Shown here piece by piece: positions 7,770 to 62,400 of a stretch of 64,000 nucleotides of DNA. The notes under the pieces were generated by a model. That model did not search any database. It was not told where the DNA came from and saw nothing but the letters and a program-made list of their open reading frames with translations. The position numbers and the translations under genes are program-made. Source of the DNA: Pseudoscleropodium purum (taxonomy: Eukaryota > Streptophyta > Bryopsida > Hypnales > Brachytheciaceae); assembly GCA_963969395.1 (NCBI GenBank), contig OZ017798.1, positions 26,466,173 through 26,530,172 on the forward strand. The letters run 5' to 3'. How positions within the stretch are numbered: the first letter of the stretch is position 1; every line of letters begins with the position of its first letter.

Positions 7770-8568
7770 CCTTGTTAACGAGGCCATGCTTTACAGCCCA
7801 AAGTGAAGAATTGCTAACAAACCACAAAACAAGTATTCTAATCTTTTATAAATTCAGTGAGCTCGTAAATCAGGGTTGACAGGACGTCCGGACTCGGACG
7901 CTGTGTTCGCAGCGTCCGTTGACATTCGCGTCCCGGCGAACGCATCGTCCGTCTGTCCCCCGTCCGCCTGTCCGCCCGTTCACCCGATTACGGCCGTCCG
8001 ATCGACGTGCAAACTGATCTGGTCCGCACGATCTAGGCGTCCGCCTCGGGCTGTCCGCCCTGCCCGTCCGCTTTCCAACGGCGGTCGGGACGCTGCGTTC
8101 GCTAGCGTCCGTGCGTCCGGACGTCCGGAAAACGGACGCTATTTTGGGGCGGACGTTGACATTCGTCAACCCTGTCGTAAATTGCCCAAAATAGTAACCT
8201 CGTTAACAAGGCCATGTTTTATAGTCCTAAATGAAAAATCACCGAAAAACCAAAAAGGAGTATTCTAATCTATCACAAATTTAGTGAGCTCTAAAATTGC
8301 CCAAAATAGTGACCTCGTTAATGAGGCCATGTTTTACAACCCTAAATTTAGAAATGCCAAAAAATGAAAAAGGAGTATTCTAATATGTTATAAATTTAGT
8401 GGGCCCCAAAATCGCCCTAAATAGTGACCTCGTTAACGAGGTCATGTTTTACAACCCATAGTGAGCAATTGAGAAGAAATTTGAATGAAATCTGAAAGCA
8501 CACACTTTGAATTTGTATCATCGGAGTGAGACTCTATAGAACTAGAATTAAACACCTCGTTAACGAGG
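7770..8568. repeat. 115-bp tandem array centred on palindrome CCTCGTTAACGAGG
   Basis: Five copies of CCTCGTTAACGAGG or a near match start at 7770, 8198, 8313, 8428 and 8555. CCTCGTTAACGAGG reads the same on both strands. Spacing is 115 bp between copies 2-3 and 3-4. Between copies 1 and 2 it is 428 bp, which becomes 116 bp once the 304-bp MITE and its 8-bp duplication are removed. The last interval is 127 bp. Each unit also shares GGCCATGTTTTACA, GGAGTATTCTAAT and AATTTAGTG. No gene overlaps convincingly. Confidence 0.85.
7871..8174. mobile_element. hAT-type MITE, copy 1 (304 bp)
   Basis: The element begins CAGGGTTGAC and ends GTCAACCCTG, giving 10-bp inverted termini. It is flanked on both sides by the 8-bp direct repeat TCGTAAAT (7863-7870 and 8175-8182). 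CAGGG-type ends with 8-bp duplications are the hAT superfamily pattern. The interior is GC-rich and full of CGTCCG/GGACG sub-repeats, quite unlike the AT-rich surroundings. It encodes no transposase, so it is non-autonomous. It sits inside one unit of the 115-bp array. A second copy lies at 34673-35038 in the opposite orientation. Confidence 0.9.
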
Positions 8569-14443: not shown

Positions 14444-15406
14444 AATAGGTAGAATAAAAATAAAAAGTGAGTGATCTTATTCAAGAGTCAAGACTATAAA
14501 GGAATGAGATTGTGGTGTAAGAAGAATTCAAAAGATAAAAACATAGAGTAGCCATTATTAATCAGAATGCAGTATTGTCAGTTGGCCCAAATTTTGTAAA
14601 TCTAAAAGTGCCATGTAAATATTTCATAAGTTAGATTGCTTTCAAAGCAACCAATGAAGCTTACCTAACTCATAAAAGAGGGTAATTCAAATTTCATAGA
14701 ACATATAAAGTGTATAGAGGTAGAGGATGCAATTACCACCAATTTGAAAGAAATGATGATCAATGTTATTGTTTATGTCGTGGTGAGTAGATTTTGTTTT
14801 ATCTCAAGAAGCTCTAATGAATGGGATGAAAATACATTCATCATCTTCTACAAGTGCTATATATTGGAGGGATTTAAAAATCCCAATCCCCCAAATAGAA
14901 TTAGTTGTCTTGTAGTGTTTTTCGTGAAAGGGATGCTAGAAGGTTCTTATAGAAAGAGAAGTAGGTCAAGTCTTCTTTTTTCTAGCAAGAAGCAATTACT
15001 AAAACTCAAAATGCTTAGATGGTTGCAAAAAGCCAATGGCATTGAGATTATTAGTACTATTCGGACCTTATCGTATGAAGTTGAGCATTTTCAATCTGAG
15101 GATAGTTTGATAGAAAATAGCAAGAGAACAAATATTGACAAGCTTGATAGTGTAGATGAAAGCAAGGAGGTTATATGGCAATTAAGTGCTCTACAGGGTA
15201 ACATAGTGCTAAAAAGCTTAGAGTTGGTATATCTAGCTATTTATAGGTACAAATAAAACTATGAGATTAAAAGAGTTGACTTAATACAAGACCATTTTTA
15301 TTTATTAGAGATGCATTAGATAGTAGACATTTAATTGTATAGCTCAAAGAGACGATTCTAACGGTATATAGTATGTCGAAAATGGAGAGTTTTTGAAGGA
15401 GTTATG
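14444..15406. other. Intergenic, no gene assigned
   Basis: The stretch is AT-rich. A plus-strand frame of 170 codons is open at 14744-15256 but has only a TTG or internal ATG start and matches no family I know. Confidence 0.4.
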
Positions 15407-16590
15407 TGTTGCAGCACAAGGCAGGTAAATTCCCCATTATACTCACAAAAATCGCTCTAGAGTATAACTAAGTGACTCTAAAGATCGAACCCACGAGATC
15501 CTGTGAAGTATCTAGCTCTATTAAGCAGTTAAGCTCAGTCAGTATCCCAATCTTACTTTCCGGTCCTAAATCTAGAACCAGAAATACCACCACACCGGAT
15601 AACTATAGACCGGATTACTCCTTCTTCCGATCCTATTAACTATCCGGTCTGTGCAAATATCCAAATCCCAGGATCTTTACAACTTCCGGTCTTGGAAATC
15701 CGTCCTGACCAATCCGGTCCGGATGGTCATCATGTATCCGTAATCCTATCTGGTTTGGTTTTGCCTCTATTTCACCATCAGAGGGGTCGCCACTTACATT
15801 TGAGAGTGGTAGGCCCACCACTCCTTCCGTGACTTATAGTGGCTGAAGACCCACTGTCCTACTTCCTAAACTCCTAAGCTAATCCGGATCCGGTTTGGTC
15901 CTTCACAACAACCCAGATAGCAATCCGGGTTGTAGGTCACACAAAGACTCCACACTCGACCCTCTCACACTACAACGACCTTGATGCTACTTCCAATCCG
16001 TGCGAAGATAGGTGGTAACAAGTGTACCCGTTCGTTCCAACATCGACTAAAGCTCTTCCGTTTGCCAACTAAGGCGGTAAGACCTCACAGGAGATCGGAC
16101 ACTCGACCGGATTTCCCACCCGGGAGTTCTAGCGCAGCTAAGGAATCCCTCCCTATTTGCCTAGCCTAACAACGGCTTTCTCACCTGGAACCTGGAACTT
16201 TAGAAGTACTGAGGAACTAAGTTCACTCCCAACTCTTAGATACCTACTCACATGCACATAGAATCGGAAAAGAAAACACCAAGGGGAGAAATCACTCGCA
16301 AACCGGCTCATACTATCCTAACTCCACATCATACAATCCTGTCGCGTTGGAGAGAGACACACAATGAGGAGAAGGGGAAGGCACAAGAGATTTACAAAAT
16401 GAAGACTCCCAGTTCCCATCGCAGGAACTGATTTATATACCAAATGTAAAAACCCTAAAAGTACAAAGCGGAGTGAAAAACCTGTGGGGGTCCGCCGCCA
16501 CCCTAATCTATCTTCCGGTCTAACCTAATACTGTTGAGCCAGATCCCAATCCGGATCCGCTCCTACTCCTAACTCAAATCAAAATCCTAT

Positions 16591-17304
16591 CTACTCTACA
16601 ACCCTAGATCCTACTGTCGGGCTTCTGCTCTGCGGATCCAACTGCTCGAAGACTTCACTCAAGTTCCGGTTCCGTTCCCCCTCCCCAGGGTTAGAACCGG
16701 GTGAAGACTCCAGGTCGATTGTAATATCCAGTCTCGTGCCCGGATTCTCAGTCCGTGCTGACTTCTTGGATTCGGGAGTCCAATCCTCCCACCCTTCGGA
16801 ACGGTCGCATCCGGAAAGGAATCCGGTAGCGAGAGGTCCGAGAGGTGTATCCCCTTGGAGCACGCTGCTCCAGTCAGCTTCCGGCTGCTTTCTTCAATCC
16901 GGTCCGCAGCCTTCCGCCCCTCCATCATCGCCGTCTCCACCTGCTCAGCAAAGTCAGTGAGAATCCGGACCATCCGGGAACCGGATAGTTTCTTCTCCTC
17001 GTGCATCTTCTCGTCGAAGAGCTTCGCTTTGGTGGCGGCCGTTCCGGTCGCTCCCAGGGTGACCTTGACTTGCTCGGCTATCTTCCGAGTCTCCTCCGCC
17101 ATCTCCCGGGTGGCTGTCACGTCTTCCTGATAGGCAAAGAGGGTTGCCTTCAGGGTGTCCACTTCCTCCTGCAGCCGGCGGATTTCCGCTTCCTGTTTCC
17201 GGGTCTCTTCCGGATTGGTGATGCACTCCGCCACCTGTTCCGCCAACTTACTGTCCGGTGGCGTATCTACCAACTTCCCGATCACCGAAAGCGTTCTGTG
17301 CTTG
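16591..17304 (-). pseudogene. C-terminal half of element protein (outer copy)
   Basis: The coding sequence resumes at HRTLSVIGKLV, directly beside the inner insertion, and continues through the coiled coil to a stop at 16591. A frameshift near 16800 separates the coiled-coil part from the tail (DWTPESKKSART, SEVFEQL). It is clearly homologous to the inner copy's residues from about 305 onward, but more diverged. Confidence 0.75.
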
Positions 17305-18487
17305 TGTCGCAGCACAGGGCAGGTCAATTCCCCATTATACTCACAAAAATCGCTCTAGAGTATAACTAAGTGACTCTAAAGATCGAACCCACGAGATCCT
17401 GTGAAGTATCTAGCTCTATTAAGCAATTAAGCTCAGTCAGTATGCCAATCTTACTTTCCGGTCCTAGATCTAGAACCAGAAATACTACCACACCGGATAA
17501 CTACAGACCGGATTACTCCTTCTTCCGGTCCTACTAACTATCCGGTCCATATAAATACCCAAATCCCAGGATCTCACAACTTCCGATCCTAGAAATCCGT
17601 CCTGATCAATCCGGTCGGAATGGTCATCCTGTACCCGTAATCCTATCCGGTTTGGTTTTGCCTCTGTTTCACCATCAGAGGGGTCGCCGCTTAATTTTGA
17701 GAGTGGTAGGCCCACCACTCCTTCCGTGACTTATAGTGGCTGAAGACCCACTGTCCTACCTTCTAGACTCCTAAGCTAATCCGGATCCGGTTTGGTCCTT
17801 CACAACAACCCAGATAGCAATCCGGGTTGTAGGTCACACAAAGACCCCACACTCAACCCTCTCGTACTACAACGACCTTGATGCTACTTCCGATCCGTGC
17901 GAAGACAGGTGGTTACAAGTGCACCCGTCCGTTCCAACATCAACTAAAGTTCTTCCGTTACCCATACGGGTGGTGAGACCTCACAGGAGATCGGACACTC
18001 AACCGGATTTCCCACCCGGGAGTTCTAGCGCAGCTAAGGAATCCCTCCCTACCCGCCTAGCCTAACAACGGCTTTCTCACCCGGAATCTCAAACTCTAGA
18101 CGTGCTGAGGAACTAAGTTCACTCCCAACTCTTCAATACCTACTCACATGCACCTTGGATCGGAAAAGAAACACCAAGGGGAGAAATCACTTGCCAACCA
18201 ACTCGTACTATCCTAACTCCACATCATACAATCATGTCGCGCTGGAGAGAGATACACAACGAAGAGAATAGAAAGGTACAAGAAGTTTGCAAAATGAAAA
18301 AACTCCCAATTCCCATCGCAGGAACCGATTTATATACAAAGGGTAAAAACCCTAAAAGCACAAAAAGGAGCGGAAAACCCGTGGGGGTCCGCCGCCACCT
18401 TAATCTAACTTCCGGTCTAACCTAATACTATTGAGCCGGATCCGGATCCGGATCCGCTCCTACTCCTAACTGAAATTAAAATCCTAT

Positions 18488-20146
18488 CTACCCTACAACT
18501 CTAGATCCTATCGTCGGGCTTCCGGTCTCCGGGACTAGCTCCTCGAAAACTTCACTCAAATTTCGGACCCGTTCCCCCTCCGCAGGATTCGGTCCGGGTG
18601 GAGACTCCAGGTCGATGGTGATATCCGGTCTCGTGCCCGGAGTCCCAATCCGTGCAGACTTCTTGGACTCAGGAGTCCAATCCTTCCTGTCCTTCGCCAT
18701 AGTTGCATCCGGAAAGAGGTCCGGTAGTGAGATGTCCGAAAGGTGAATACCTTTGTCGCACGTCGCTCCCGTCAGCTTCCGGCTGCTCTCCTCGATCCGG
18801 TCCGCTGCCTTCCGCCCCTCCACCATTGCCGTCTCCACCTGCTCGGCGAAGTCCACGAGAATCCGGACCATCCGGGAACCGGATAGTTTCTTCTCTTCGT
18901 GGATCTTCTCGTCGAAGAGCTTCGCCTTGGCCGCTGCCGTTCCGGTCTCTCCCAGGACCGCCTTGATCTGCTCGGCCACCTTCCGAGTCTCCTCCGCCAT
19001 CTCCCGAGCGGCCGTCACGTCTTCCTGATAGGCAAACAGTGTTGCCTTCAGTTTATCTACCTCCTCCTGCAACCGGCGGATCTCGGCTTCCTGCTTCCGG
19101 GTCTCTTCCGGATTCGTGATGCATTGCGCCACTTGTTCCGCCAAGTTGCTGTCCGGTGCAGCACCCACCAACTTGCCGATTGCCGCAAGCGTCCTGTGCT
19201 TGACCTCCCAATCCGCCCTGATGTTGCAGAGGACGTTGATCAGACCGTTGAACGGATCTTGCATATCCGGATCTCCCCCGGAATTGGTCTTCTTGGCTTC
19301 CGGTTTCTCCTCCGGGGCCGGTTTGTCTTGACCGGGAGGCGTCCCGCGCTTGTGTGGAGGCGTCAGCTTCTGTCGCTTGATCGGCGGCATCGGCTCCTCC
19401 TCTTCCTCGCTGGACTCCCGGTCTGACCCGGAATCGGATTCCGCCTCGTCATCCGTCTCCGACTCCCCATACTTCAGGAGCACTTCCTACGTCTTCCACG
19501 CCCTCTCCTCTATGTCGGTGAGGACTTGGTTCTCCCGATAGAGGTGGAAGAGATAAGGGCACACTGGAGTGGCCCTTTTCTTCCCAACCCTACTAACAAG
19601 CTGGGCCACGAGATCGGAAATGATCCGTGCCCAGTCCACTTTCTGGGTACCACTGAGGGCACCGAAAATGGTGTTGCCGAGGGTGATCGTCACCCTGGTC
19701 GGCTTTTCCGGGTGAAGAACCGGAACCAGGAATTGCAGGAGCCGACAGTGTCGGTCATCCAAGCAATCCTCGACCGCGTATCCGTCCTTCGGGTTGACGG
19801 CTCCCTTGAACTTCCCTCGGACAAACTCATCCTTCCGGCTCGCCATTCCCAAACCTCTTGCCCGGAAACCGTAAACCGCTCTCCACATCCCCTCGTTCCA
19901 GCTGACGGGAGCTCCCCTCACGGTGTTGTCAAACTGGTTGGACAACTTTCCGAGGAGCTCCTTGACCATTCTCTCCTCCCTAAAACCCCAAGGTTTCTCG
20001 GCAAACCCTACGCAACCCATGGATCTGAGATCATCCATGAGTTCAGCCTTTTCCGGCTCTGTGGAGGGAATAACCGGAATGACTTTCCAGAGCTTCACCT
20101 CGCCTCTAGAGGGACTCGCTTGTCTCGACCTACGTAGCTGAGGCAT
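18488..20146 (-). pseudogene. Element protein, about 552 codons, one nonsense codon (inner copy)
   Basis: The frame starts with ATG at 20146 (MPQLRRSRQ) and ends at 18488. A single TAG at codon 220 (19487-19489) interrupts it. The equivalent codon in the outer copy is CAA, so the ancestral gene was one open frame. The N-terminal 220 residues form a globular region with VTITLGNTIFGALSG and DWARIISDLV, which loosely resembles the 'putative plant transposon protein' type of domain (uncertain). Then come an acidic/serine stretch (residues about 225-245), the basic PPIKRQKLTPPHKR, likely a nuclear signal, and a coiled coil around RLQEEVDKLKATLFAYQED (about residues 340-400). The C-terminal tail is Pro/Ser/Glu-rich. 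There is no visible DDE, RT or RNase H motif. Confidence 0.7.
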
Positions 20147-20325
20147 TCCCACTCACATCTACCTCACTCTCTCCTAGCCGCACGTCCCGTTCCTCACTTC
20201 CTCTCTCCGATCTCAACCGGAATTAAAACGAACAGAACATAAATGCACAGACGCACAAACGACAAAAACTCAATCGTGCGCTCAAGGTCGAGTTTCTAAA
20301 AGGGGGTGCAACAGTGAAAGCTCCT

Positions 20326-20336
20326 CCTTTTATAGT
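20326..20336 (-). promoter_or_regulatory. TATA-box-like site upstream of element gene (inner)
   Basis: On the minus strand the sequence reads CTATAAAAGGAGGAGC, about 185 nt upstream of the ATG at 20146. The same block, as CTATATAAGGAGGAGC, is kept in the outer copy, which supports a promoter role. Confidence 0.6.
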
Positions 20337-20612
20337 CCCTGGACCCTTTCCGGTTTGTCATCATGAATCCGGTTTACCATCATAATCCGGTTCATCATCA
20401 TCATCCGGTCCTAGACCTAATCCGTGTTACATTCCGTTTCCGTCGTTAGTTACTCCTGACCGGATTAGATCCAAGAAGCCCACTACTTCACGTTCCGTGC
20501 TAATTCTGAGTTTTCCTTCCCCACCTAATCGGATCCGGTTAGCTAATGACTAGTTTCCGTTCCTATTTGGGTGTATACTAAGAAAATCAAAATTCTAAGC
20601 TACGACAGCTTG

Positions 20613-21542
20613 ACCTCCCAATCCGCCCTGATGTTGCAAAGGAGGTTGATGAGGCCGTTGAACGGATCTTGCAATTCCGTGTCTTCCTCGGAAATGGTCT
20701 TCTCGACTTCCGGTCTTTCTTCAGGGGCCGGTTTGTCGTGACCGGGAGGTGTCCCGCGCTTGTGGGGAGGCGTCATCTTCTGTCGCTTGATGGGCGGCAT
20801 CGGCGGCTCCTCTTCTTCCTCGCTTGACTCCTGGTCTGACCCGGAATCGGACTCGGCCTCGTCATCCGTTTCCGACTCCCCATACTTCAGGAGGACTTCT
20901 TGAGTCCTCCACACCTTCTCCTCCGCGTCAGTGAGGAGTTGGTGTTCTCGATAGAGGTGGAAGAGGTAAGGGCACACTGGATTGGCCCTCTTCTTCCCAA
21001 CTCACGAGATCGGAAATGATCCGTGCCCAGTCCACTTTCCGGTTACCACTTAGGGCACCGAAAATGGTGTTGCCAAGGGTGATCGTCACCCTTGTCGGCT
21101 TTTCCGGGTGAAGGACCGGAACCAAGAACTGCAGAAGCCGACAGTGTCGGTCATCCACGCAATCCTCGACCGCGTACCCGTCCTTCGGATTGACGGCCCC
21201 TTGGAATCTGCCCCGGACGAACTCATCCTTCCGGTTTGCCATTCCTAACCCTCCTGCCTGGAAACGATAAACACCTCTCCACAGTTCCTCGTTCCAGCGG
21301 CTAGGGGATCCTCTCACGGTGTTATCAAACTGGTTGGACAGTTTGCCGAGGAGTTCCTTGACCATTCTCTCCTCCCTAAAACCCCAGGGTTTCTCTGCAA
21401 ACCCTAGGCAACCCATAGAGGTGAGGTCCTCCATGAGTTGAGACTTCTCCGGCTTTGTGGAGGGAATAACCGGAATGACTTTCCGGAGCTTCACCTCGCC
21501 TCCAGAGGGACTCGCTGGTCTCGCCCTACGTAGCGGCGGCAT
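20613..21542 (-). pseudogene. N-terminal half of element protein (outer copy)
   Basis: This is the other half of the split gene. It starts with ATG at 21542 (MPPLRRARPAS) and runs to ADWEVK, where the inner element enters. A net loss of 17 nt near 21000, compared with the inner copy, shifts the frame. At the position of the inner copy's stop this copy has CAA (WRTQEVLL), which proves that the two frames were once joined. Confidence 0.75.
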
Positions 21543-21706
21543 TCCCACTCCAATCTACCTCACTCTCTCCTAGCCGCACGTCCCGTTCCTCACGTTCTTT
21601 CTCCGATCTCAACTGGAATCAAAGCCTGCAGCACGCAAACGCAAAAACTCTACAACGCGCGCTCAAGGTTGAGTTTGTAAAAAGGGGTGCAACTGCGAAG
21701 GCTCCT

Positions 21707-21718
21707 CCTTATATAGTC
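21707..21718 (-). promoter_or_regulatory. TATA-box-like site upstream of element gene (outer)
   Basis: On the minus strand the sequence reads GACTATATAAGG, about 170 nt upstream of the ATG at 21542. It is conserved in position and flanking sequence with the inner copy. Confidence 0.6.
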
Positions 21719-21974
21719 TCTGGACCATTTCCGGTTTGGTCGTCTTGAATCCGGTTCACCCATAATCCGGTCCTAGAGCTAATCCGTGTTGCATTCTGTT
21801 TCCGTCGATAGTTACTCCTGATCGGATTAGATCTAAGAGGCCCACTACTTCATGTTCTGTGCTAGTTTTGAGTTTTCCTTCTTCACCTAATCGGATCCGG
21901 TTCCCTAATGGCTAGTTTCCGTTCCTATTTTGGTGCATGCTAAGAAAATCAAAATTTTAAGCTGCGACATTATG

Positions 21975-26712: not shown

Positions 26713-27804
26713 CCTCGTCACTAAGGGCGGGACGGTGGAGGGAGAAGGCACCCCCTGCCCATTGCCCGCCCTCCAGCCCTCGGGCACCGTCCCGCCCTTA
26801 GGGACGAGGTCGGCCCACCACCCCGTCCATCCGATCCCCATCCTCCCGTCTCTTCCACTCTACCGTCTCCAACCTCTTCCCTCTCCAGCTCTTCTCCATC
26901 TCCTCTCCGTCTCCTCTCCGTCTCCTCTCCGTCTCCTGCCCGCAGCTCTAGAGCCGTCACCGCGTCACACTGAAGATTGAAAAAACTGAAAAAATTGCGC
27001 TCAAATATTGATGGAGATTTAGACAAAATTCTCCAATACTGATGAATATTTCTATAGATTATTCTGACAATGGTTTATTCTATTCAATCAATCCATAAGG
27101 AAGTGGGGAAGTGATGATTTCACCAAACAAACGAAGCAGTGAGGCATTTCCAACTATAAAGATGGTCACTTTTTTAATAAAACTGAATTTGAAGCAATAA
27201 AAAATGAGGATTCTATTGCAAATAAAACTCTGAACTTCCTAGTTTGGAGTCTAAGCTTATGTTAGGAGAGCTAGAGAGATGTACTGTAATAAGTTACTTT
27301 CAATGGAATTTTTACAGGTAAGTATTATAGTCCTGAAATAGAATTGTTGTATCTAGTTGTTGAACAATAATAGATCAGTTTGCACACCTGAATGGAGTTT
27401 CCTTGGCCTGTGAGAATTTTGTGAGTTTGGAGGAGTTTGTGAGCTGGAAGGAGTATGTGGGCTGAAAAATGATGTGCATGAAAAATCTGCGCTTAAAAAA
27501 CTCCAAAGCATCAAGAAAATGCACTCAAACGCAACAAAGCTCCAATCAAGAGTCACAACTCCGAGTGCGCCGCGGCAATGGATCTAGAGCTACGGGCGGG
27601 AAATGGAGAGGAGATGAAGAGGAGACGGAGAAGAGCTGGAGAGGAAAGAGGCTGGAGACGGTAGAATGGGAGAGACGGGAGGACGGGGATGGGATGGATA
27701 GGGTGGTGGGCTGACCTCGTCATTAAGGACAGGACGGTGCCCGAGGGCTGGAGGGCGGGCAGGGGGTGCCTTCTCCCCCTACCGTCCCGCCCTTAGTGAC
27801 GAGG
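26713..27804. mobile_element. Non-autonomous Mutator-like element (long inverted repeats)
   Basis: The element starts CCTCGTCACTAAGGGCGGGA and ends with its reverse complement. The inverted arms extend about 245 bp (26713-26960 and about 27560-27804) with roughly 85% match. An exact 9-bp direct repeat GTAGGCCCC flanks it (26704-26712 and 27805-27813). Long terminal inverted repeats plus a 9-bp duplication are diagnostic of MULEs. The 600-bp interior has no transposase. The arms contain tandem TCTCCTCTCCG runs, and each arm itself begins with a hairpin (26713-26736 pairs with 26788-26812). Confidence 0.92.
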
Positions 27805-27995
27805 GTAGGCCCCCAACGCTATTCCGACGAGCAATTTCCAATGGAAGTCATTGATGCAATAACCCACCCTACGACAACAATCAACATCTTTAGTATTAGG
27901 GGAAAAATAAGAAAACTTTGGTGGACTTGTTGACTTTGTTTGGTGATGTGTCAATGCATTATTCATTTCTTTTAATAGTGTTCAAGTACATAAAG

Positions 27996-28251
27996 TGTTG
28001 AAGAACATGTACATATTAGTGTAGATTATGTACATTCAACCCTAGGAGTAGTATTAGCCTCTTAGTTAGGCTTAGAGTCTAATGGATATTGCTTGTAGTC
28101 AAAGGTAGCCCATGGTGTTTAGTTATCCCACATGGTTTGTGGATAACTAGGGAAAGGCTTTTCCCTTTTATGTTCAGCCCATGCATAGGCCTTGATATCA
28201 TCCTACCATCTAAGTAAAGCCTTTCATCCTTCTCATATTGTAATCTCAATA
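27996..28251 (+). repeat. 5' LTR of the copia element
   Basis: It begins TGTTGAAGAA and ends CTCAATA, not the usual CA. The end is set by the 5-bp duplication TAAAG; a 6-bp duplication ATAAAG with the LTR one base shorter is equally possible. Confidence 0.92.
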
Positions 28252-28266
28252 GGTTATGGGCCCACG
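28252..28266 (+). other. Primer-binding site matching mid-tRNA initiator Met
   Basis: GGTTATGGGCCCA directly follows the LTR. Its complement, TGGGCCCATAACC, is the anticodon-stem region of eukaryotic initiator tRNA-Met, not the 3' acceptor end. Drosophila copia is known to prime from a cut half of this tRNA with a similar site. Confidence 0.8.
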
Positions 28267-29146
28267 CACTTGAAGTTGCGTTTGAGGGAGGAATTCAAAG
28301 CATTTGGAGGAGGTCTTGGAGCTTGGAGGAGTAATCAGCCCTTTGTCACTTGTCACCTACAAACCATATGGTGTGAGTCATTTTTCAAAAACAAAAACTT
28401 TGAAGTGCATTTTTTTTTAAAAAGGAGGAAATGTTTTTTTGAGCTTTTGTTGGCTGGTTTGTGAGGTTTGGAGTACATTTTGGGTGGGACATTGCTTATG
28501 GTAGTAATCAGACCTAGAGTGGGCTGGTTGCATGCTCCTAGTTTGAGTTTGTGCTTAGAAAAGTACATTGGGAGCCCATTGTGGCTGATTTTGCACTTAG
28601 GTGCATTGTGGATAGTAATGGTGCCAATTGCCATCTATTGAGAGTCTTTGTGAGCCTTGGAAGCATATTTGAGTTGCTTGAGGTTTTTGCCATGCATGGA
28701 GGGCTGATTAGTGCCCTTATGAGTGTGTGAGGCAATTCATGGACTTTGTGAACCCAAGAGGGCTGATTTGTGGCCATGTGAGCCATTGAGGGCCAATTAG
28801 GGTGTTTGGGTGGATTGGTGATCCATTGAGGGCTGATTGGAAGGCTTGAGTGCCTTGGAGTGTGGAGTACCCTATTTGTGAGGAGCATTGTGAGTTGGCT
28901 TGCTGAATTGAAGTAGCACTAGCCCATCATGTCCATGTGGTGGATTTGAGCTCCATTAGGGTCTGAATTCGTGTTGAGAGGAGGTGAGGCACTTGTGAGG
29001 AGTGTTTTGTCCTTCCTAAGGTTGTGAGGATCTTGGAAGGGCTGATTGTTGGCATTTCAGCCCAATTGGCTTCCAAGGGAGTGTTTGGAGTCTGAATTGA
29101 CTTGGAGACACTTAGGGTGCTGCCAACAAGTGGGAGGTGCTTCATC
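28267..29146 (+). other. Long untranslated leader of copia element
   Basis: About 880 bp lie between the primer site and the first credible gag ATG. The leader is rich in G, T and the word GGCTGATT. It has no long sense frame; minus-strand frames here have no recognisable product. Confidence 0.7.
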
Positions 29147-32100
29147 ATGTCATCAAGTGGAGGAGAGGGCGTGCGCATCATTGACAAGTTCAATGGGGAG
29201 AACTTTGGCATGTGGAAGTTCAAGATGGAGATGATCCTTGCGGAGAAGGACTTGTGGGACGTGGTGGATGGGAGTGAGGAGCCTCCAAGTGAAGATGCGG
29301 ATCCAAAGACCAAGAAGGGGTTTGAGAGGAAGGAGAAGAAGGCCTTTGCTCTCATTGCCATCAACCTTGCGGACCGGCAAATTGCACACATCCGCCATTG
29401 CAAGGGACCAGCCCAAGCATGGACCACCCTTTGCAACATCCATGAGACCAAGAGCCTCTCCAACCTCCTATTTCTTCGCCGAAAGTTCTTCACTAGCAAG
29501 ATGGAAGAGGAGGACGATTTGTTGGATCACGTCAACAAGGTCAAGGCTCTTGCGGATGAGTTGGCTTGTTTGGATGCGCCCGTGACGGAGGGAGATGTGG
29601 TGATGACCTTGTTGGCAAGCTTGCCATCATCTTATGAGTTCCTCATCACCGCATTGGAGACAAGGCCCACCAAGGAGCTGACCTTGGAGTTTGTGACGGC
29701 TCGCTTGATGCATGAGGTGACCAAGCACAAGGAGAATGAGCCCCAAGGGGAGGGATCAGCCCTAGTCTCAAGACATGGCAAGGGAGGCAACACCAAGGCT
29801 TTCAAGGAAACAAGGACATGCTTCAAGTGTGGCAAACCAGGCCACATTGCTAGGCATTGCAAGATCAGCCAAGACAAAGGCAAGGAGAGTGCACACCAAG
29901 CTTCCAAAGAGGAGGAAGAGGAGGATTTCGCCTTTGCAGCCAATGGAAGAGGGGAGAAGGCCAACATGTTTACTTGGATTGTGGACTCGGGAGCCACTCA
30001 ACATATGACCAGCCATCGTGATGCCTTCCACACGTATCAGCCCATTTCGGGGAAGAAGATTTATTTGGGAGACAATGGCATGGTGGAGGCCCTTGGCAAG
30101 GGGGAGATCCTTGTGGAGGTGATGGTGAAGGGTCAGCCCAAGAGGATCCAAATCCATGAGGTCCTTCATGTCCCCAAGTTGCATGCCAACTTGCTTTCGG
30201 TAAGCAAATTGTCTTTGGGAGGTTTGAAAGTGCATTTCAACATGGTGGGGTGTGTTGTGAGGGCACCAAGTGGAGTCTTGATTGCATCAGCCCCTCGTGA
30301 GGGCAACTTGTACCTCCTCCATTTCACCAAGGTGAATGGCACTTCCTTGGCGTGTGTGGCCCAAGGATCAGCCCATGAAGACCTTGTGGAGCTTTGGCAT
30401 AGGAGGCTTGGGCACTTGAATGTGAAGAGCATGAAGAGCCTCCAACACATTGTGAAGGGGCTAAACCTCTCTTCTTGCAAGCATGATTGGAGTTCTATGG
30501 TGTGCAAGGGGTGCATTGAAGGCAAGCAAGCAAGGCAGCCCTTCCCCAAGGATGGGGCCACAAGGGCGAGCAAGCTATTGGAGCTTGTGCATTCCGATGT
30601 GTGCGGGCCAATGAAGACCACATCCATTGGAGGAGCAAGGTATTTCGTGACCTTCATTGATGATTTCTCTCGTAAGGTTTGGGTGTACATGCTGAAGTGC
30701 AAGAGTGAGGTGTTTGGGCGTTTTGAGACTTGGAAGGCCCTTGTGGAGGCCCAATCCGAGTGCAAGGTGAAGGTGCTGCGATCGGATAATGGAGGGGAGT
30801 ATGTGTCCAAGGCCTTTGAGGGGTACTTGAAGGCTCATGGCATTGAGCACCACACTTCAGCCCCTTACACTCCTCAACAAAACGGCGTAGCGGAGCGTGC
30901 CAATCGCACCATTGTGGAGATGGCAAGGGCCATGATTCATGGCCAAGGGTTGAAGTATGAGCTTTGGGAGGAGGCCGTGTCCAATGCGGTTTATACAAGG
31001 AATCGGTGCCCTACGCAAGCCTTGACAAGCAAGACACCCCAAGAAGCTTGGAGTGGGATCAGACCTCATGTGTCTCACATGCGCATCTTCGGGTGCATTG
31101 CCTATGCATTGGTTCCAAGTGCCAAGAGGACCAAGTTGGATGCCAAGGGCATCAAGTGTCTTTTCCTTGGTTATTGTGAGGAAACCAAGGCTTATAGGCT
31201 GATGTGTGTGGAGAGCAAGGCCATCATCAAGAGTCGAGATGTGACCTTCTTGGAGGATGGAGGTGCTGATCCTAAGCTCTTGGAGATGAGCCCAAGTGGG
31301 AGTAGTGGAGGACCAGCCGAAAAGGTGGGCACAACTCCAAGAGTGCACATGGAAGATGAAGGAGATGAAGATGAAGAAGATGAAGAGTTGGTGGAGCCCA
31401 AGAAGAAGGCGGCCACACCCCAAGGGAAGAGGCCATCAGCCCCTTCTCCAAGATCTTTACCAAGGGGGCAAGAGCGTGATCAGCCCTTGGAAGAGCAAGA
31501 TCAGCCTTTGGAGGAGCAAGACCAGCCCTTGGAGGAGCCACGTTATCCAACAAGGACCCGCAAGCCACTTGGAGATTGGTGGCTGAATCACATTCTTCCC
31601 CCACAAAATGAAGAACAAGCCAATGTGGCTTTCCTTGGAGATCCCTCCACACTAGGAGAGGTGTTGCGTTGTGAGGATGCAAGCAAGTGGGAGTTGGCCA
31701 TGCAAGAGGAGTACAAGGCCCTCATTACCAAGGGGACATGGGAGCTTGCACCCCTTCCTTCCAAGAGATCAAGTGTGGGTTGTAAGTGGGTTTTCTCCAC
31801 CAAAAGGGATGCTTTGGGTCATGTTGTGAGGTACAAGGCAAGGCTGGTTGCTAGGGGGTTCTCCCAAGTGGAGGGTGTGGATTTTAATGAGACTTTTGCT
31901 CCCGTTGCCAAGTTTAGCACCATCCGGTGTGTTGTGAGTCTTGGGGCAGCCATGGACTTGGAGATGCACCAAATGGATGTGAAGACGGCTTTTCTCAACC
32001 CCAAGCTCAAGGAGGTCATCTACATGGATCAGCCCCAAGGTTTTGTGCAAGAAGGCAAGGAGCACCTCAAGTGCAAGTTGAGGAAAGCCCTTCCCGGGTT

Positions 32101-33286
32101 GAAGCAATCGGGGAGGGCCTGGTACCAAGATATTGATGCCATGTTTGTGAGGAAGGGCTTCCTAAGAAGCCATGCTGATCACTCTTTGTACACCATGCAA
32201 AGTGGTGAGTTTTTGGTGATTGTGATCTTATATGTGGATGATCTGATCCTCCTTGCAAGTAGCATGACCAAGATGCTTGAGGTGAAGGCTATGCTCAAGG
32301 AGGAGTATGAGATGACGGATCTTGGAGAGCTAAGCTATTGCCTTGGAGTGGAGTTCAAGAGGGATAGGGCTGTCCGCACCATCACCATGAGCCAACGCAA
32401 GTACCTTGAAGAAATCCTCAAGCACTTCAACATGGAGGAGTGCAAAGCCATAGGTACACCCCTTGACACTCATGTGAAGTTGCCCAAGCTCATGGATGCT
32501 GAATTTGGAGAGGTGAGGGCTGAAATGCAAGGTGTGCCTTACAAAGCAGCGGTTGGGTGCTTGATGTATGCCATGGTAGCCACAAGGCCTGATTTGGCCT
32601 TTCCGGTGAGTGTTGTGAGTCAACACATGTCCAAGTATGGCCCAATGCATTGGGCAACGGTGAAGAGGGTGATGAGGTACCTTCAAGGCACACTTGGCAT
32701 GGAGTTGCAACTTGGAGGTGCCCATGTGACTTTGCATGGGTATTGTGATGCGGATTGGGCAGGTGATGAGGGGGATAGGAGATCCACCACCGGCTACGTG
32801 TTTATGCTTGGATTGGGTGCCATTACTTGGAATTCCAAGAGGCAGCCCACCATAGCTCTCTCTACAACGGAGGCTGAATACATGGCCATGAGCCAATGCA
32901 CCAAGGAGGCCATTTGGTTGAGGCAACTCTTGGCTGATGTTGGTCTTGTCCAAGAGGGGAGCACACCCATTTGGTGTGACAACCAAGGGGCCATTGCTTT
33001 GGCCAAAAATCCCACCCACCACTCTCGTACGAAGCACATTGATGTGCAACACCATTTCATTCGTGAACGAGTGGAGGCTGAGGTGATTGAGCTCAAGTAT
33101 GTGCCTACCCAAGCTATGGTTGCTGATGTGCTGACCAAGGCCCTTGGGAAGCTACAACACCACAACTTGATAGGGAAGATGGGCCTTGGAGCCTTTGACC
33201 ACTCTCAAAGTGGGAGTGTTGAAGAACATATACATATTAGTGTAGATTATGTACATTCAGCCCTAGGAGTAGTATTAGCCTCTTAG
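29147..33286 (+). CDS. Copia gag-pol polyprotein (1379 aa, uninterrupted)
   Basis: ATG at 29147 (MSSSGGEGVRIIDKFNGENF) is chosen because the frame upstream to 29102 has only a TTG. Gag comes first, with CFKCGKPGHIARHC, a CCHC zinc knuckle, at residues 225-238. The protease active site DSG is at 280-282. The integrase zinc-type His/Cys region and catalytic core follow, with SDNGGEY (Asp 547) and YTPQQNGVAERANRT. A variable acidic linker contains three tandem copies of DQPLEEQ. Reverse transcriptase has YVDD at 1029-1032, and RNase H starts near YCDADW (about 1199) with DNQGAIALAKNP further on. The single-frame gag-pol without a shift is normal for copia. Products act in cytoplasmic particles to copy the RNA and insert DNA in the nucleus. 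No stop or shift was seen. Confidence 0.95.
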   Translation: MSSSGGEGVRIIDKFNGENFGMWKFKMEMILAEKDLWDVVDGSEEPPSEDADPKTKKGFERKEKKAFALIAINLADRQIAHIRHCKGPAQAWTTLCNIHETKSLSNLLFLRRKFFTSKMEEEDDLLDHVNKVKALADELACLDAPVTEGDVVMTLLASLPSSYEFLITALETRPTKELTLEFVTARLMHEVTKHKENEPQGEGSALVSRHGKGGNTKAFKETRTCFKCGKPGHIARHCKISQDKGKESAHQASKEEEEEDFAFAANGRGEKANMFTWIVDSGATQHMTSHRDAFHTYQPISGKKIYLGDNGMVEALGKGEILVEVMVKGQPKRIQIHEVLHVPKLHANLLSVSKLSLGGLKVHFNMVGCVVRAPSGVLIASAPREGNLYLLHFTKVNGTSLACVAQGSAHEDLVELWHRRLGHLNVKSMKSLQHIVKGLNLSSCKHDWSSMVCKGCIEGKQARQPFPKDGATRASKLLELVHSDVCGPMKTTSIGGARYFVTFIDDFSRKVWVYMLKCKSEVFGRFETWKALVEAQSECKVKVLRSDNGGEYVSKAFEGYLKAHGIEHHTSAPYTPQQNGVAERANRTIVEMARAMIHGQGLKYELWEEAVSNAVYTRNRCPTQALTSKTPQEAWSGIRPHVSHMRIFGCIAYALVPSAKRTKLDAKGIKCLFLGYCEETKAYRLMCVESKAIIKSRDVTFLEDGGADPKLLEMSPSGSSGGPAEKVGTTPRVHMEDEGDEDEEDEELVEPKKKAATPQGKRPSAPSPRSLPRGQERDQPLEEQDQPLEEQDQPLEEPRYPTRTRKPLGDWWLNHILPPQNEEQANVAFLGDPSTLGEVLRCEDASKWELAMQEEYKALITKGTWELAPLPSKRSSVGCKWVFSTKRDALGHVVRYKARLVARGFSQVEGVDFNETFAPVAKFSTIRCVVSLGAAMDLEMHQMDVKTAFLNPKLKEVIYMDQPQGFVQEGKEHLKCKLRKALPGLKQSGRAWYQDIDAMFVRKGFLRSHADHSLYTMQSGEFLVIVILYVDDLILLASSMTKMLEVKAMLKEEYEMTDLGELSYCLGVEFKRDRAVRTITMSQRKYLEEILKHFNMEECKAIGTPLDTHVKLPKLMDAEFGEVRAEMQGVPYKAAVGCLMYAMVATRPDLAFPVSVVSQHMSKYGPMHWATVKRVMRYLQGTLGMELQLGGAHVTLHGYCDADWAGDEGDRRSTTGYVFMLGLGAITWNSKRQPTIALSTTEAEYMAMSQCTKEAIWLRQLLADVGLVQEGSTPIWCDNQGAIALAKNPTHHSRTKHIDVQHHFIRERVEAEVIELKYVPTQAMVADVLTKALGKLQHHNLIGKMGLGAFDHSQSGSVEEHIHISVDYVHSALGVVLAS
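33207..33216 (+). other. Polypurine tract
   Basis: AAAGTGGGAG ends exactly at the 3' LTR boundary, the expected site for plus-strand DNA priming. Confidence 0.75.
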
Positions 33287-33472
33287 TTAGGCTTAGAGTC
33301 TAATGGGTATTGCTTGTAGTCAAAGGCAGCCCATGGTGTTTAGTTATCCCACATGGTTTGTGGATAACTAGGGAAAGGCTTTTCCCTTTTATGTTCAGCC
33401 CATGCATGGGCCTTGATATCATCCTACCATCTAAGTAAAGCCTTTCATCCTTCTCATATTGTAATCTCAATA
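33217..33472 (+). repeat. 3' LTR of the copia element
   Basis: It is the same length as the 5' LTR with five transition differences. The gag-pol stop codon (33284-33286) lies inside it, so the last 23 codons are LTR-encoded. Confidence 0.92.
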
Positions 33473-33477
33473 TAAAG

Positions 33478-34672: not shown

Positions 34673-35038
34673 CAGGGTTGACGAATCTCTACGTCCGCCC
34701 CAAAATAGCGTCCATAACCCAGACGTCTGGATGTTCGGACGCACGGATGCCAGCGGATGCAGTGTCCCTCCCGCCATCGAAAGGCGGACGGGCGGGGCGG
34801 GGCGGACGGCCCGAGGTGGACACCCAAATCGTGCGGACCACATCAGTCCGCGTGTCGATCGGACAGCCGTAACCGAGCGGACGGGTATCGGGGCGGACGT
34901 TGGACAGGGTGGACGGGCGGACAGGCAGACAGAGGACAGGCGGACGGGGCGGACAAGTGGACGCGAATGTCAGCGGACGCTGCGGACACAGCGGACGCAT
35001 CCAGACGTCCCAAACGTCCGACCGTCCTGTCAACCCTG
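34673..35038. mobile_element. hAT-type MITE, copy 2 (366 bp)
   Basis: It begins CAGGGTTGAC and ends GTCAACCCTG, with the exact 8-bp duplication ATTCTAGT on both sides (34665-34672 and 35039-35046). It is related to 7871-8174 but lies the other way round: CCGCCCCAAAATAGCGTCC near its left end matches, reversed, GGACGCTATTTTGGGGCGG near the right end of copy 1. It is about 60 bp longer, mainly through extra GGACGG/GCGGAC units. No transposase is encoded. Several frames stay open across it only because of its GC content. Confidence 0.92.
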
Positions 35039-47050: not shown

Positions 47051-49602
47051 CTACTTCTTGGCAGCAATCATCGCAATTTCAACTAAGACTTTATGCAGCG
47101 TCTGAGGCTTGGAAAAGAAAGGAGAATGGTCCCCGCTTTTCAATGTAAACACCAGTTCAGGAGGGTTTTGGTCGATGATTTTGTGTTGCAGATCTGGTGG
47201 TAATGCCTGATCCTGAGGTGTTACAATATAAAACCGCCGCACACTGCCGTACTTTTCAGGTGTCAAAGTGATGTTTTCCATGGCTGGTGAGAAAGGGATG
47301 GGCCTCATGGACACCATTGCTAGGGCTACATCCTGCACAATATCCACACCCACAAGTGTAAGCTTGGACGATACCACTTCATTTGCATCTTCAAAATTGG
47401 AAAAGGGATCATCACAACCAGAGCATTCTTGATCAAATTTCAGAATCATCTCTCCTTAACCACTTTGTGACCAAATGGTGAAGAGTGTCTGCTTACATTT
47501 CTTTAGGATTTGAAATTAATCATTTAGGAAGGCGTACCAAATAGAAAGAAGATACTATACCAAACAATTTTCAATCATAAAAATACGTTTCGAAAGTTAG
47601 TAAAACTAGAAGCTGGGCCACTCGGGTTAAACCTACTGCAAATCTGACTGAGCAAATTATTTCCGATTCACGACAAAGAGAAAAGGATGCATGTATGGAC
47701 TTATATACTAGATGAAATACCTTAGCTGGGGTAACATTGAAGAACAGATCCCTAACTAAAGTTCTGTCAAGTTCCACTGCTGTTGGTGTACTGGAAGTTC
47801 CATTCCCGTAAAGAAATTTCTGTGCCTTGGGCATCAAATCGTCTTCCGTCTTCTCCTGCACAAATCCAGTTCACGCGTAGTTGCTTAGAAAGTATACACA
47901 GTAAGTAATTGCCAGACAAACAAAAAACATCATAGAGTTGAGTCATATCAACAATGACATTAGCACAGATCTTCGAATGATCACAATATGCCATGAGTTG
48001 AATACTTGTTCATACATTTTAATTTGAGTTGCTAATTCATAAGTACCTTCACTCTTCATTTGTGCACAGTGGAGCAGTCAAAAAACGACTAAGTTAAATA
48101 CCTGCCGTACAAACACATCGAATGCCCGTTGACCATTGCATATCATGGCAGCCGCCACAAAGATGGCTTTGGATATTTTACTTGGGAAGCACTCCATCGC
48201 ATAGGATACACAAGCTCCTCCAATGTTATGCCCCACTAGAATTACCTGCATTGTCAAAACCACTACTAAGTGACCAGCCACTTATAACACAGACTTACGA
48301 AAGTATAGTACCACTCCAGCATGTAATGACGTACATTGAGTATACTCGGAACGTGAACATTTATCCATCCCTCAGTGACAATCTGTAGAAACATAATGTA
48401 AAGAAAGGCTGGGATCGAATCCTCAAACTTCTGGAAAGAATGCGTACCGACCTTTTCATCAGAACCCAACTGTTCCAGAAATTCCAGAAGAGGCTTCACG
48501 TAGACGGCCATGCTATTGATCTGATTGGGATCCGTGGAGTCAATCCCCGAGCCCTTCAAGTCAATAGCTGTAGCCACCAATCCAGCTTCCTCAAGTAACG
48601 CTATGGACTTGTACCAGCACCAGGCTCCCAGGCCTCCTCCATGCACCAACACAAAATGCTTCGTTTCAATATTCGCTTTCACAATTCCGTCCTGCAAAAC
48701 AGCAAAATCATTTTCATAAGAAACATAAAATGTTAAAAAAGTAAGCGCCTCTGAAGAAGTGCTCAACATTTGGTTACTGTACAATCTCACTTGAGTAACA
48801 TGAAGAGTACTAACTCAGAATAAAGCCGTACTCTTCCTTCAATCTACATTTTGTTATTTTTTCGTATAAAGAATCTCATACACGCTGGTGGACACAAGGA
48901 AAAAACCAAGGAATACACAGAACCAGAAAGGGATCATCCGTCCTCTAGGGGCAAATTCGCACTTGCAGAGATGACAACAAGACGTGAGAGAAGCCCACAC
49001 AATCATAAATCTCATAGAGGCGAGCAAGAGATAAAATGCAGGGAAAAGCAAACAGAGCAATCCCTGGTGTACAGAGAGCAGAATTCAAATTCCAGCGTCT
49101 GAGAGTTAAGCAGCGCAATGTGGATGAAATTGGCTATCACAACATCACTGGCGGAAAATTGCGCAACAAATTAACTACAAAGGAACCAATGCGGCCAAGA
49201 TTGAATGCTAAAAAGAAAGCAGAAGACGACCTTGGAGCCATTGATAAGCTGTCCAGGATCGACCATCAAGTCATCGAGACGCCGAAACCGACTACTGTTA
49301 CTCCTCTTGATGTCCATCTTATTCTCGGCGCTGAGCGACCTCCCGGCATAACTCTTCCGCGGCGGTTGAATCGACGGGTCTCGAATCGCATTGCTACTGT
49401 CGTTGTTATTGTTGTAGCTGCGCTCAAATCTCATCTGCGCCTTGTGCTGCTGCTGCAACGCCATCGCCAACGCCTGCTGCTCAATGAGGCCAGTCTCCCA
49501 GTCCCCGCGCTTCCGCGACCCCGTCGTCGTCCCCGCCTTCTTCGTCCTCGTCTTCGGTCTCCGCGCTTGGCCGCTCCCAAAACACGCCATCTGATTCCCC
49601 AT
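47051..49602 (-). CDS. MES11-type methylesterase-like alpha/beta hydrolase, 390 aa
   Basis: Five exons on the minus strand join in phase 0: 49602-49231, 48691-48452, 48245-48102, 47855-47721 and 47332-47051 (TAG). The N-terminal 124 residues start MGNQMACFGSG and are rich in R, S and Q, like the plastid-targeted N-terminus of putative methylesterases 11-15. The hydrolase fold follows, with FVLVHGGGLGAWCWYK and IDLKGSGIDS. At the nucleophile elbow the sequence is VGHNIGG, with Asn at about residue 211 where active esterases have Ser. The later Asp (PQDQ, about 338) and His (GDHSPFFSKP, about 366) remain. From memory, Arabidopsis members of this subgroup also lack the Ser (Asp instead), so it may be a non-catalytic binder or use different chemistry. 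Total length equals that of the family. It appears intact. Confidence 0.9.
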
Positions 49603-59450: not shown

Positions 59451-62400
59451 CACTGTCATTGCCAACCTGGTCTGTACTCACTCGGACTGACGAAGTACTT
59501 TACAGAGGAGCTTGAGCCGGTTTCGTCTCAAGACTATCCATTGATCTCCTGATCTCCTCTTCTTGAGTTGTGTGTACAGTCTGCTCGCTCCCTGTCTTGA
59601 GGTTGAGCTCCCTTGTGTTCTCTTGTCCTTATTGCTGGTATCGGTTTGCGTAGAACTTAGCACGAGGCTGTGAGAGTTTTCAAGACGAGCTTGTTTTGCT
59701 CAGATCTAGTTGCAGATGTCAGGGATGAACATAAAGGATTCAAAATGAAGAGGGGTCGCGAAGAAGAGGAGGATCTCTCTGAGGTGCGTTTCATGCTTCT
59801 GGAATTGTGATTTGATGCACTAAGAGGAAACCACCTAATGACTGGCTTTAAGGAATCCTGTTTGTGTGCATGATGGATCATGATTCGTGCCTGTCTTCTT
59901 CTGCAGCATGTTGTTTCGATTGACATATGAAAGAGAAAAATTTGGATGGGTCACCTAATTTAGTAACGCATCATCTCTGTTGTATGTCTGCAGCTGCTCC
60001 AATTCTTGGATGAGGAAGCGGCGGGTCCTTCCAACGATGGTGACAATCACTGGTGAGATGCGGATCACTGAACACATGATGTGTGAGGTTTCTCAGAATG
60101 GCTAGTTTGTACTGCAGAGGACCTGCTAGTTTGTAGTCCAGAGGACCTGGAGAAAGAAACGAAGAAACCCGGCAATCCACAGGGGTTCTTTCTCCTGATT
60201 ATTTCATGAAAATCCTGACAATGTAGATCACCTCCTAGCTCTAGGGTGTTCTTTCCAGTCGGAATGCCAAATCCTAAGGCATGGAGCTCGGAGGGTTTGT
60301 AAATTAGCTTGGAACGGCCCGCTTGAGGGTCTAATAATTTTTTTCGAAAAAGGGCATATTATCCTCAATCTCATTAACCTTGGATTTGTATTTATTCAGT
60401 AGGGTCCTCCGTACCGTGGATTGGACTTTGTTGCCCTCCCCACCTAATTGAACACATGGTTTGCACAGCCGGTGCACTACACTACTTGTGTCCGTTCAGA
60501 CGTGTGGTTCTTATTTGTTGGCAATTCTAAATTGTTGGTTTTGTCAGGGAACCGGAATTGGAACCCAAACATACAATATTTCTAAGTCACAGTGGAGTTC
60601 AGAAGAACTTTACCGAGCAATTGTGCGTTGATTTGGAAAGGTGGGAGTACTCGCCATTCTTCGACAAACGGCCTGATAGTTTACCAAAGGGCCAAAAATT
60701 TCCTGAACTTATATTTCAAGCTGCTCAACAATGTCGCGTTGCAGTACTGGTATTATCTGAAGATTTTTTCACCCAGACAAAGTGGCCCATGCTAGAGTTG
60801 GAGGCATTTGTGGAATCTCAAAACGACAATCTTGGAAAGCTTGCAATTCTCCCGGTGTATTTGGGACTCTCACGCCATGAATGCACAAGGAATGAAACAA
60901 GACACCAACATTGGTTATCTGTGTGGAAAGATTGGGCCCAAAATGATGATGGGATTGATGTGTGCAAGTGGGAGGATGCATTGAAGGTGTTGGGTCCTTT
61001 GAACGGAATTGAGTATGTGGAATCTTTAGCTGAAGTAGCATTGAGAGAGCAAATTGTGAGTGTTGTTCGTGGCCTAATTCCATTGGAGAACTTATGGAGT
61101 GGTGCACATGTCCAAGGGAGAAAGCATGTACTTAAGGTGAGAAATCATTGTGAATATACTAAAGGTAATGAATGTGAATGCTCTTGTACAATGCAAGGGA
61201 TGCTTGCTATTGCAAGTGAAAACATGGTGTATGTAGACTAGTAATGACTCTCAAGAAGATGGATAGTGCTATTGGGTGACTTGCTCTTGTCATTTCTTTG
61301 GCCTATGCGAACCTTGGGTTCACTTGTGTATATGTGTGCACAAGCAAAATGGAACATATGAAATCATGTCTAATTCTAGCAAGGGATTCTATCTAATTTG
61401 GTTGGCTTGGTTATTATTGACCAATTCCAACAATTTTGGGTGCACTCTTGGGTGAAAAACACAACATATTGTCATGGGCTAGAGTAATTCTAATAGTATT
61501 TATTTACTTTTAGCTACAATATTTGTTTGAAAGTATCATTTCAATGTATACAAATACAAAATGGATCATAGTGAAGTCTTATATGATTTAGCTATTCACA
61601 CATCAATGAACTTCTTGCAAATAAGAGGTTACACCAAAATATGAAACATAATTGAATTCCAATGTTTCGTACAATAATTGTAAAAAAATATGTTAGATGG
61701 AAAATACAATAAGAGGTAGTTGCCTAGACCTAACAAAATGATTTACATTGCTTCTACTTGAATGTAGGCTATAATCAACAAGTTGGTGAGTACAAAACCA
61801 TCACCATTTTATGGTGTTCGTGTGGTGGGTATTTATGGTATGGGAGGAATTGGAAAGACCACTTTTTGCAAAGCACTTTGTGATGAGTTGTATATGAAGT
61901 TCCAAGGAAGAGTGCCATGTTGAATTAGGAAGCAAGAGTGAAGCAATTGAGTTGCACAAGGAATTGTTGCAAAGATTGATGGATCTAAACTATGACAGTT
62001 TAATGTTTATGAAAGAAGCTATGGTTAGTTGAGCATACCCCATCTATATTGAACATGACATTCCTTAGTTGTGTTGATGTATTTATATTTTGATATCTTC
62101 ATCTTTGAGAAGGCATCAATCATGGAAAAGTATTCTGATGTTCAAAGTAGTCAATCTAAAGTATTAGAGCTTTGAATTATTTAAGCAAATGAATTCTACT
62201 TATAAATCTAGAAATGTATAATTGTAGAATATGGATCTTCTCAAACGACACATACATCAACAAGTGTTCTTAGCTTTGGATAATGTGTGGCAAGAGTCAC
62301 TAGAGCAAGCCAAGGATTATCTTAGGGTAGGATTTCACCATAGCAACATTATAATGGTGATGGCTTGTTCTATTGACATACTTGGTCGCTTAAACATCAA

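Follow-up and report, generated by a model that had tools for sequence, protein, structure and literature searches.

The closest described counterpart of the system considered here is found in Arabidopsis, where the VANC proteins of VANDAL transposons, elements of the MULE type, bind short motifs that fill the non-coding DNA of their own element and frequently form arrays in which units are gained and lost (PMC5735166, PMC10398659, as far as the accessible portions of these papers go). VANC is named as the example of anti-silencing in the available parts of a review of May 2026 (PMC13317346) and of a paper of January 2026 (PMC12844716), and the latter asks whether the extra open reading frames (ORFs) of long terminal repeat (LTR) elements act likewise or shape methylation. 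We analysed a 64-kb window (40% GC; contig OZ017798.1 of Pseudoscleropodium purum, positions 26,466,173 to 26,530,172) in which two copies of one 3.3-kb unit are nested in the same orientation; positions below are those of the window. Our preferred explanation, which we hold to be moderately probable, is that the copies are solo LTRs of a Ty3/gypsy element whose U3 houses a gene for a VANC21-like, WTCCGGW-binding protein that keeps the LTRs free of methylation in trans.

The coordinates that a sequence-only reading had assigned to the two nested copies, with exact ends and 5-bp duplications of TTATG outside and GCTTG inside, hold to the base:

15402-15406 (unstranded): outer target-site duplication TTATG, left; identical to 21970-21974
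15407-17304 (minus): 3' part of the outer solo LTR, with the gene end, the second TATA box and R-U5; 88.5% identity when aligned to the inner copy
17300-17304 (unstranded): inner target-site duplication GCTTG, left; identical to 20608-20612
17305-17458 (minus): conserved U5 end, adjoining the primer-binding site in full elements, with a hairpin TTATACTC..GAGTATAA; the window copies differ at 5 of 154 sites
17305-20607 (minus): complete inner solo LTR, 3303 bp; LTR identity from full-length genome elements
20608-20612 (unstranded): inner target-site duplication GCTTG, right; exact repeat of the left
20613-21969 (minus): 5' part of the outer solo LTR, with the U3 start, TATA box 1 and the gene's N-terminal part; 85.2% identity when aligned
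21970-21974 (unstranded): outer target-site duplication TTATG, right; exact repeat of the left

The class of the element was settled in the host genome (313 Mb, 52 contigs), where the search with 17305-20607 proposed by that reading gave at least 47 matches and 1131 first-look candidates; the 40 best-scoring of these were fetched with flanks, and all counts of genome copies refer to them. Two direct LTR pairs, C47:7004939-7008244 with 7014157-7017462 and C45:9312340-9315644 with 9321557-9324861, each enclose 5912 bp. Within the first element the two LTRs show 1 difference in 3306 sites, within the second 3 in 3305; the interiors are 99.4% alike, and GAGGT flanks one element on both sides and AAAGC the other. 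Directly 3' of the 5' LTR lies a site resembling a primer-binding site, TGACAAAAATCTGGCGCCGCTGCCGGGGA (TGACAAAAATC followed by TGGCGCCGCTGCCGGGGA), with what is presumably a primer-binding type of plant Ty3/gypsy elements, and a purine-rich tract, GAGGAAGGGGTAA, directly precedes the 3' LTR. Between them, one ORF of 536 aa carries Retrotrans_gag and a zinc knuckle, and a second, of 1369 aa, has reverse transcriptase (RVT_1, 531-684), RNase H (774-878), integrase zinc-binding and integrase core (1073-1171) domains in the order of Ty3/gypsy elements. The unit also has the TG..CA ends, short inverted repeat and duplication of 4-6 bp of an LTR retrotransposon. With gag-pol between near-identical direct LTRs, the element is therefore a Ty3/gypsy LTR retrotransposon, recently active and with 3.3-kb LTRs, and the window copies are solo LTRs. 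In 26 of the 40 genome copies, a single unit stands between two identical 5-bp sequences (one of these copies, L030, within a short repeat), so the ends of the unit are element ends elsewhere too, which answers a refuting condition that the reading itself had named; four of the 40 continue into the first bases of the interior.

Of the three readings put forward from the sequence, a solo 3.3-kb LTR carrying its own gene thus stands, by the very kind of LTR pair that the reading had asked for as proof, while a Ginger-like derivative and a new group fall. Ginger-type elements hold an integrase-like transposase inside single terminal-inverted-repeat units and make a 4-bp duplication, and VANDAL and other MULE elements have a duplication of about 9 bp and a MuDR-type transposase. 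Here, the duplications are of 5 bp, no transposase exceeded the cut-off and the unit has no integrase match, in line with the earlier remark that nothing in it resembles a transposase, reverse transcriptase or integrase; membership of either group is ruled out. A single-unit DNA transposon, Ginger-like or other, would accommodate the single-unit form of both window copies and the ends TGTCG, which do fit the TGTNR of Ginger1 (PMC3601003), but the full-length elements refute it for this family and its probability is negligible.

The outer and inner copies are 88.3% identical over ungapped columns, the divergence being 13.4% in the ORF, 13.1% in the first 461 bp, 8.5% in the stretch after TATA box 2 and 3.2% in the last 154 bp. 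The fold of the conserved U5 end is not notable (z -1.26), Rfam gave no match at gathering score in the window and one weak match within the element, and a U5-end pattern, to which we give no weight, had 0 matches in viral contigs. The self-insertion fits open LTR chromatin without proving it. Elsewhere in the genome, L011 and L012 (C1:29707573-29715619) form an inverted LTR pair, 99.9% alike and about 1.4 kb apart, whose outer flanks share CACTT, an element with inverted LTRs that perhaps arose by inversion or faulty integration; further abutting LTR pieces, perhaps nested as in the window, lie at C48:273620-280217, C45:8614342-8620919 and C41:2502433-2506969.

An accessory gene in the U3 of an LTR is known from mouse mammary tumour virus (sag), of which host, protein and role differ from those here. 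In the full-length elements, the gene sits wholly inside both LTRs, giving two genes per element, and shares one sense with gag and pol. In plant LTR retrotransposons such as Grande (gene23), Retand and RIRE2, additional ORFs, some with nuclear products, occupy the interior, in most cases the stretch from pol to the 3' LTR, according to the accessible part of PMC7264820; a gene of that type is not what we see, with the present one inside the LTRs and the pol ORF ending less than 40 bp from the 3' LTR. The extra ORF of sunflower Tekay, resembling dsRNA-binding proteins, has another predicted fold and is not stated to lie within the LTR in the available text (PMC12844716). The Retrosat2/RIRE8 elements of rice also have long LTRs (>3.2 kb in Retrosat2), ends TGTCACACCC..GGGCGTGACA and an extra ORF0, but this lies upstream of gag-pol and, in the portion at hand, is not stated as within the LTR (PMC3485330). 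Searches of open-access text brought up no gene inside a plant LTR that we could recognise (PMC1560396 and PMC13195028 describe something else), which does not show its absence from print.

The gene and its predicted N-terminal domain occupy the following parts of the inner copy:

18488-20146 (minus): ORF of 552 codons plus stop, with a predicted VANC-like N-terminal domain, an acidic and basic linker and a coiled coil; interrupted by a single in-frame TAG
19490-20146 (minus): N-terminal domain, 219 aa; pLDDT 88.3 and pTM 0.83 when folded on its own

The single 552-codon gene claimed for each copy is thus real as an ORF but intact in neither: the inner has the in-frame TAG, and the outer has deletions of 17 bp and 1 bp and is split by the inner copy. 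Across the genome, the gene is open in 35 of the 40 copies; of the 26 single LTRs flanked by a 5-bp duplication, 23 have it open. Both shares are biased upwards because the copies are the best-scoring of 1131. The pattern of substitutions points clearly to constraint: pN/pS is 0.25 across 595 pairs of open genome copies (a simple count, several changes in one codon being taken one at a time), first, second and third codon positions are polymorphic at 73, 50 and 141 sites in the open copies, and dN/dS between the window copies is 0.20. An indirect test, in which relatives were paired when their contigs had equal length (116 proteins, then 133 of 222, those on contigs >5 kb), is secondary evidence that agrees with a gene in either LTR: among 8180 alignable pairs, the 14 on a shared contig take the first two ranks, although five of these are under 80% identical.

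In sequence features, the protein is acidic, nuclear-looking and coiled-coil. Overlapping protein searches returned at least 163, at least 76 and at least 60 relatives, and those aligned, some of them partial, share the conserved N-terminal domain, the acidic and basic linker and the coiled coil; a diverged branch of the family (P0194-P0196), 29-30% identical to P0043, has the same layout. No Pfam family exceeded the cut-off in tables covering the ORF, eight N-terminal domains and nine relatives (Transposase_29 reached E 0.2 and 10.3 bits against a cut-off of 27, in the coiled coil), and one of 120 relatives listed bears a precomputed PF03999. PHROGs offered no known family, searches of PDB sequences yielded no match or weak ones, situated chiefly in the coiled coil, and scans of viral contigs with the protein, its alignment and the copia pol of the window brought up no relatives with DNA context outside the host; genome contigs gave none either.

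A hidden nuclease fold, suggested as a check by the sequence-only reading, was not found. The predicted N-terminal fold resembles the DNA-binding protein VANC21, in the structure of VANC21 with DNA, the sole structural match over this domain, and a viral structure library gave no match to the predicted structure at E<=0.001. At the level of sequence, eight N-terminal domains (E<=10) and nine relatives (E<=1) had no match to VANC or DUF1985, and DUF1985 is not among the 25 families listed of 68 in a further Pfam table. A resemblance of this kind might be a chance likeness between mixed helical folds, in a protein that does not bind DNA, with the excess of CCGG described below having some other cause such as repeat slippage; we judge this improbable.

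Two TATAWA sites on the minus strand of each copy, one before and one after the ORF, and two motif arrays organise the LTR around the gene:

18331-18336 (minus): TATA box 2, some 150 bp downstream of the stop codon, the proposed genomic-RNA promoter; outer counterpart begins at 16439
18436-18456 (minus): array of CCGGAT, 3.5 units, between the ORF and TATA box 2
20329-20334 (minus): TATA box 1, 188 bp upstream of the ATG; counterpart in the outer copy begins at 21715
20349-20409 (minus): array of an 18-bp unit with ACCGGAT, 3.3 units, just upstream of TATA box 1; four units in the inner and three in the outer copy

The conserved TATA box reported earlier is therefore present, although there are two; no further TATAWA occurs on the minus strand within either window copy. 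TATA box 1 is found in 39 and TATA box 2 in 38 of the 40 genome copies, L028 adding one to both once turned round. The opposite strand also has TATA-like sites, yet the sense of gag-pol settles the orientation of the LTR. TATA box 1 would be the promoter of the LTR gene, and TATA box 2 probably the start of the genomic RNA, leaving an R-U5 of about 1 kb.

The motif is over-represented in the element. The 1644 non-coding bases of the inner copy hold 26 TCCGG, where shuffles have 4.3, and 12 ATCCGGT, where they have 0.3; for the non-coding DNA of the outer copy, the counts are 20 against 3.2 and nine against 0.1. Taking the 5' part alone, the counts of TCCGG were equalled by the best of 200 shuffles, while those of ATCCGGT were not, and the rest of the window has one ATCCGGT against 2.6 expected. 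The ORF has TCCGG 31 times, above all of 1000 synonymous shuffles, so the motif is not restricted to non-coding DNA, and the sites spread across nearly the whole LTR. Between the window copies, 39 of 57 motif sites were kept against 396 of 740 other single-CpG words (p 0.02, with overlapping words), a hint only that motif sites are preferentially kept. Of the 40 genome copies, 35 have four units of the 18-bp array, four have three and one has none.

A short motif clustered in the non-coding DNA of its own element, partly in arrays with gain and loss of units, and an element-encoded protein are shared with VANC and VANDAL, and the N-terminal fold, as predicted, may be so too. The differences are the missing DUF1985 match, the carrier, here an LTR retrotransposon, and the motif itself, WTCCGGW, which contains CpG and extends into the ORF, whereas VANC motifs are YAGTATTAY or AGTTGT(C/A)C. 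By this analogy, the proposed system would work most like VANC, while by membership it is no VANDAL and sequence comparison does not establish its protein as a VANC.

Under our preferred explanation, the U3 part of about 2.3 kb would house the additional gene under its own TATA box, and the second TATA box, 3' of the gene, would start the genomic RNA; reverse transcription would therefore place a gene in U3 in both LTRs, and recombination between LTRs would leave it behind, often open, in a solo LTR. The protein may multimerise through its coiled coil, bind WTCCGGW sites through the VANC21-like domain, notably in the arrays before both TATA boxes, and act in trans against host methylation of the LTRs, in the manner of VANC on VANDAL. 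With two copies of the gene in each element, every solo LTR would continue to supply the un-silencing protein and to be acted upon by it. The main rival accepts the LTR and its gene and takes the protein simply to activate the LTR promoters, or to assist integration or RNA export, rather than to oppose silencing. The arrays beside both TATA boxes fit an activator as well, as does an acidic, nuclear-looking, coiled-coil protein, and the accessible part of PMC7264820 proposes roles like those of retroviral accessory genes for plant additional ORFs; against this, the single structural match of the N-terminal domain is to an anti-silencing factor and the motifs cover nearly the entire LTR, and we find the rival unlikely, if clearly less so than a chance likeness of folds.

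The wider claim, that an LTR houses a sequence-specific anti-silencing factor, and hence that a VANC-like system, formed by a protein family that is widely spread and undescribed, exists beyond the VANDAL DNA transposons, we put forward tentatively, at slightly less than even chances. If true, a VANC-like gene in an LTR would answer the question on extra ORFs raised in the available text of PMC12844716. A strategy is suggested by where the gene lies: genomes commonly shed such elements by recombination to solo LTRs, and this leaves both gene and targets in place. The motif, the domain and the two promoters are directly testable.

The window also contains an intact-looking Ty1/copia element at 27996-33472 (plus), with the duplication TAAAG at 27991-27995 and 33473-33477, 256-bp LTRs about 98% alike and one ORF of 1394 aa (29102-33286) with gag, integrase and reverse transcriptase domains. 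Its LTR lacks the U5-like end of the solo LTRs, and directly after its 5' LTR stands GGTTATGGGCCC, which we take to match an inner part of initiator tRNA-Met. The kinds of retroelement in the window, together with an ORF for a TIR domain, point to a land plant as the probable host. Other features are a long inverted repeat at 26758-27766 (175 nt, 87% complementary, 659 nt apart), two dispersed inverted repeat copies at 7882-8174 and 34673-35010 (81-84% alike) and, beside them, a 115-bp tandem duplication at 8179-8408. An ORF at 48266-48790 (minus) has an alpha/beta-hydrolase match just under the Pfam cut-off (25.2 against 25.8 bits), and one at 60558-61241 (plus) encodes a TIR domain (PF13676, E 4.3e-15).
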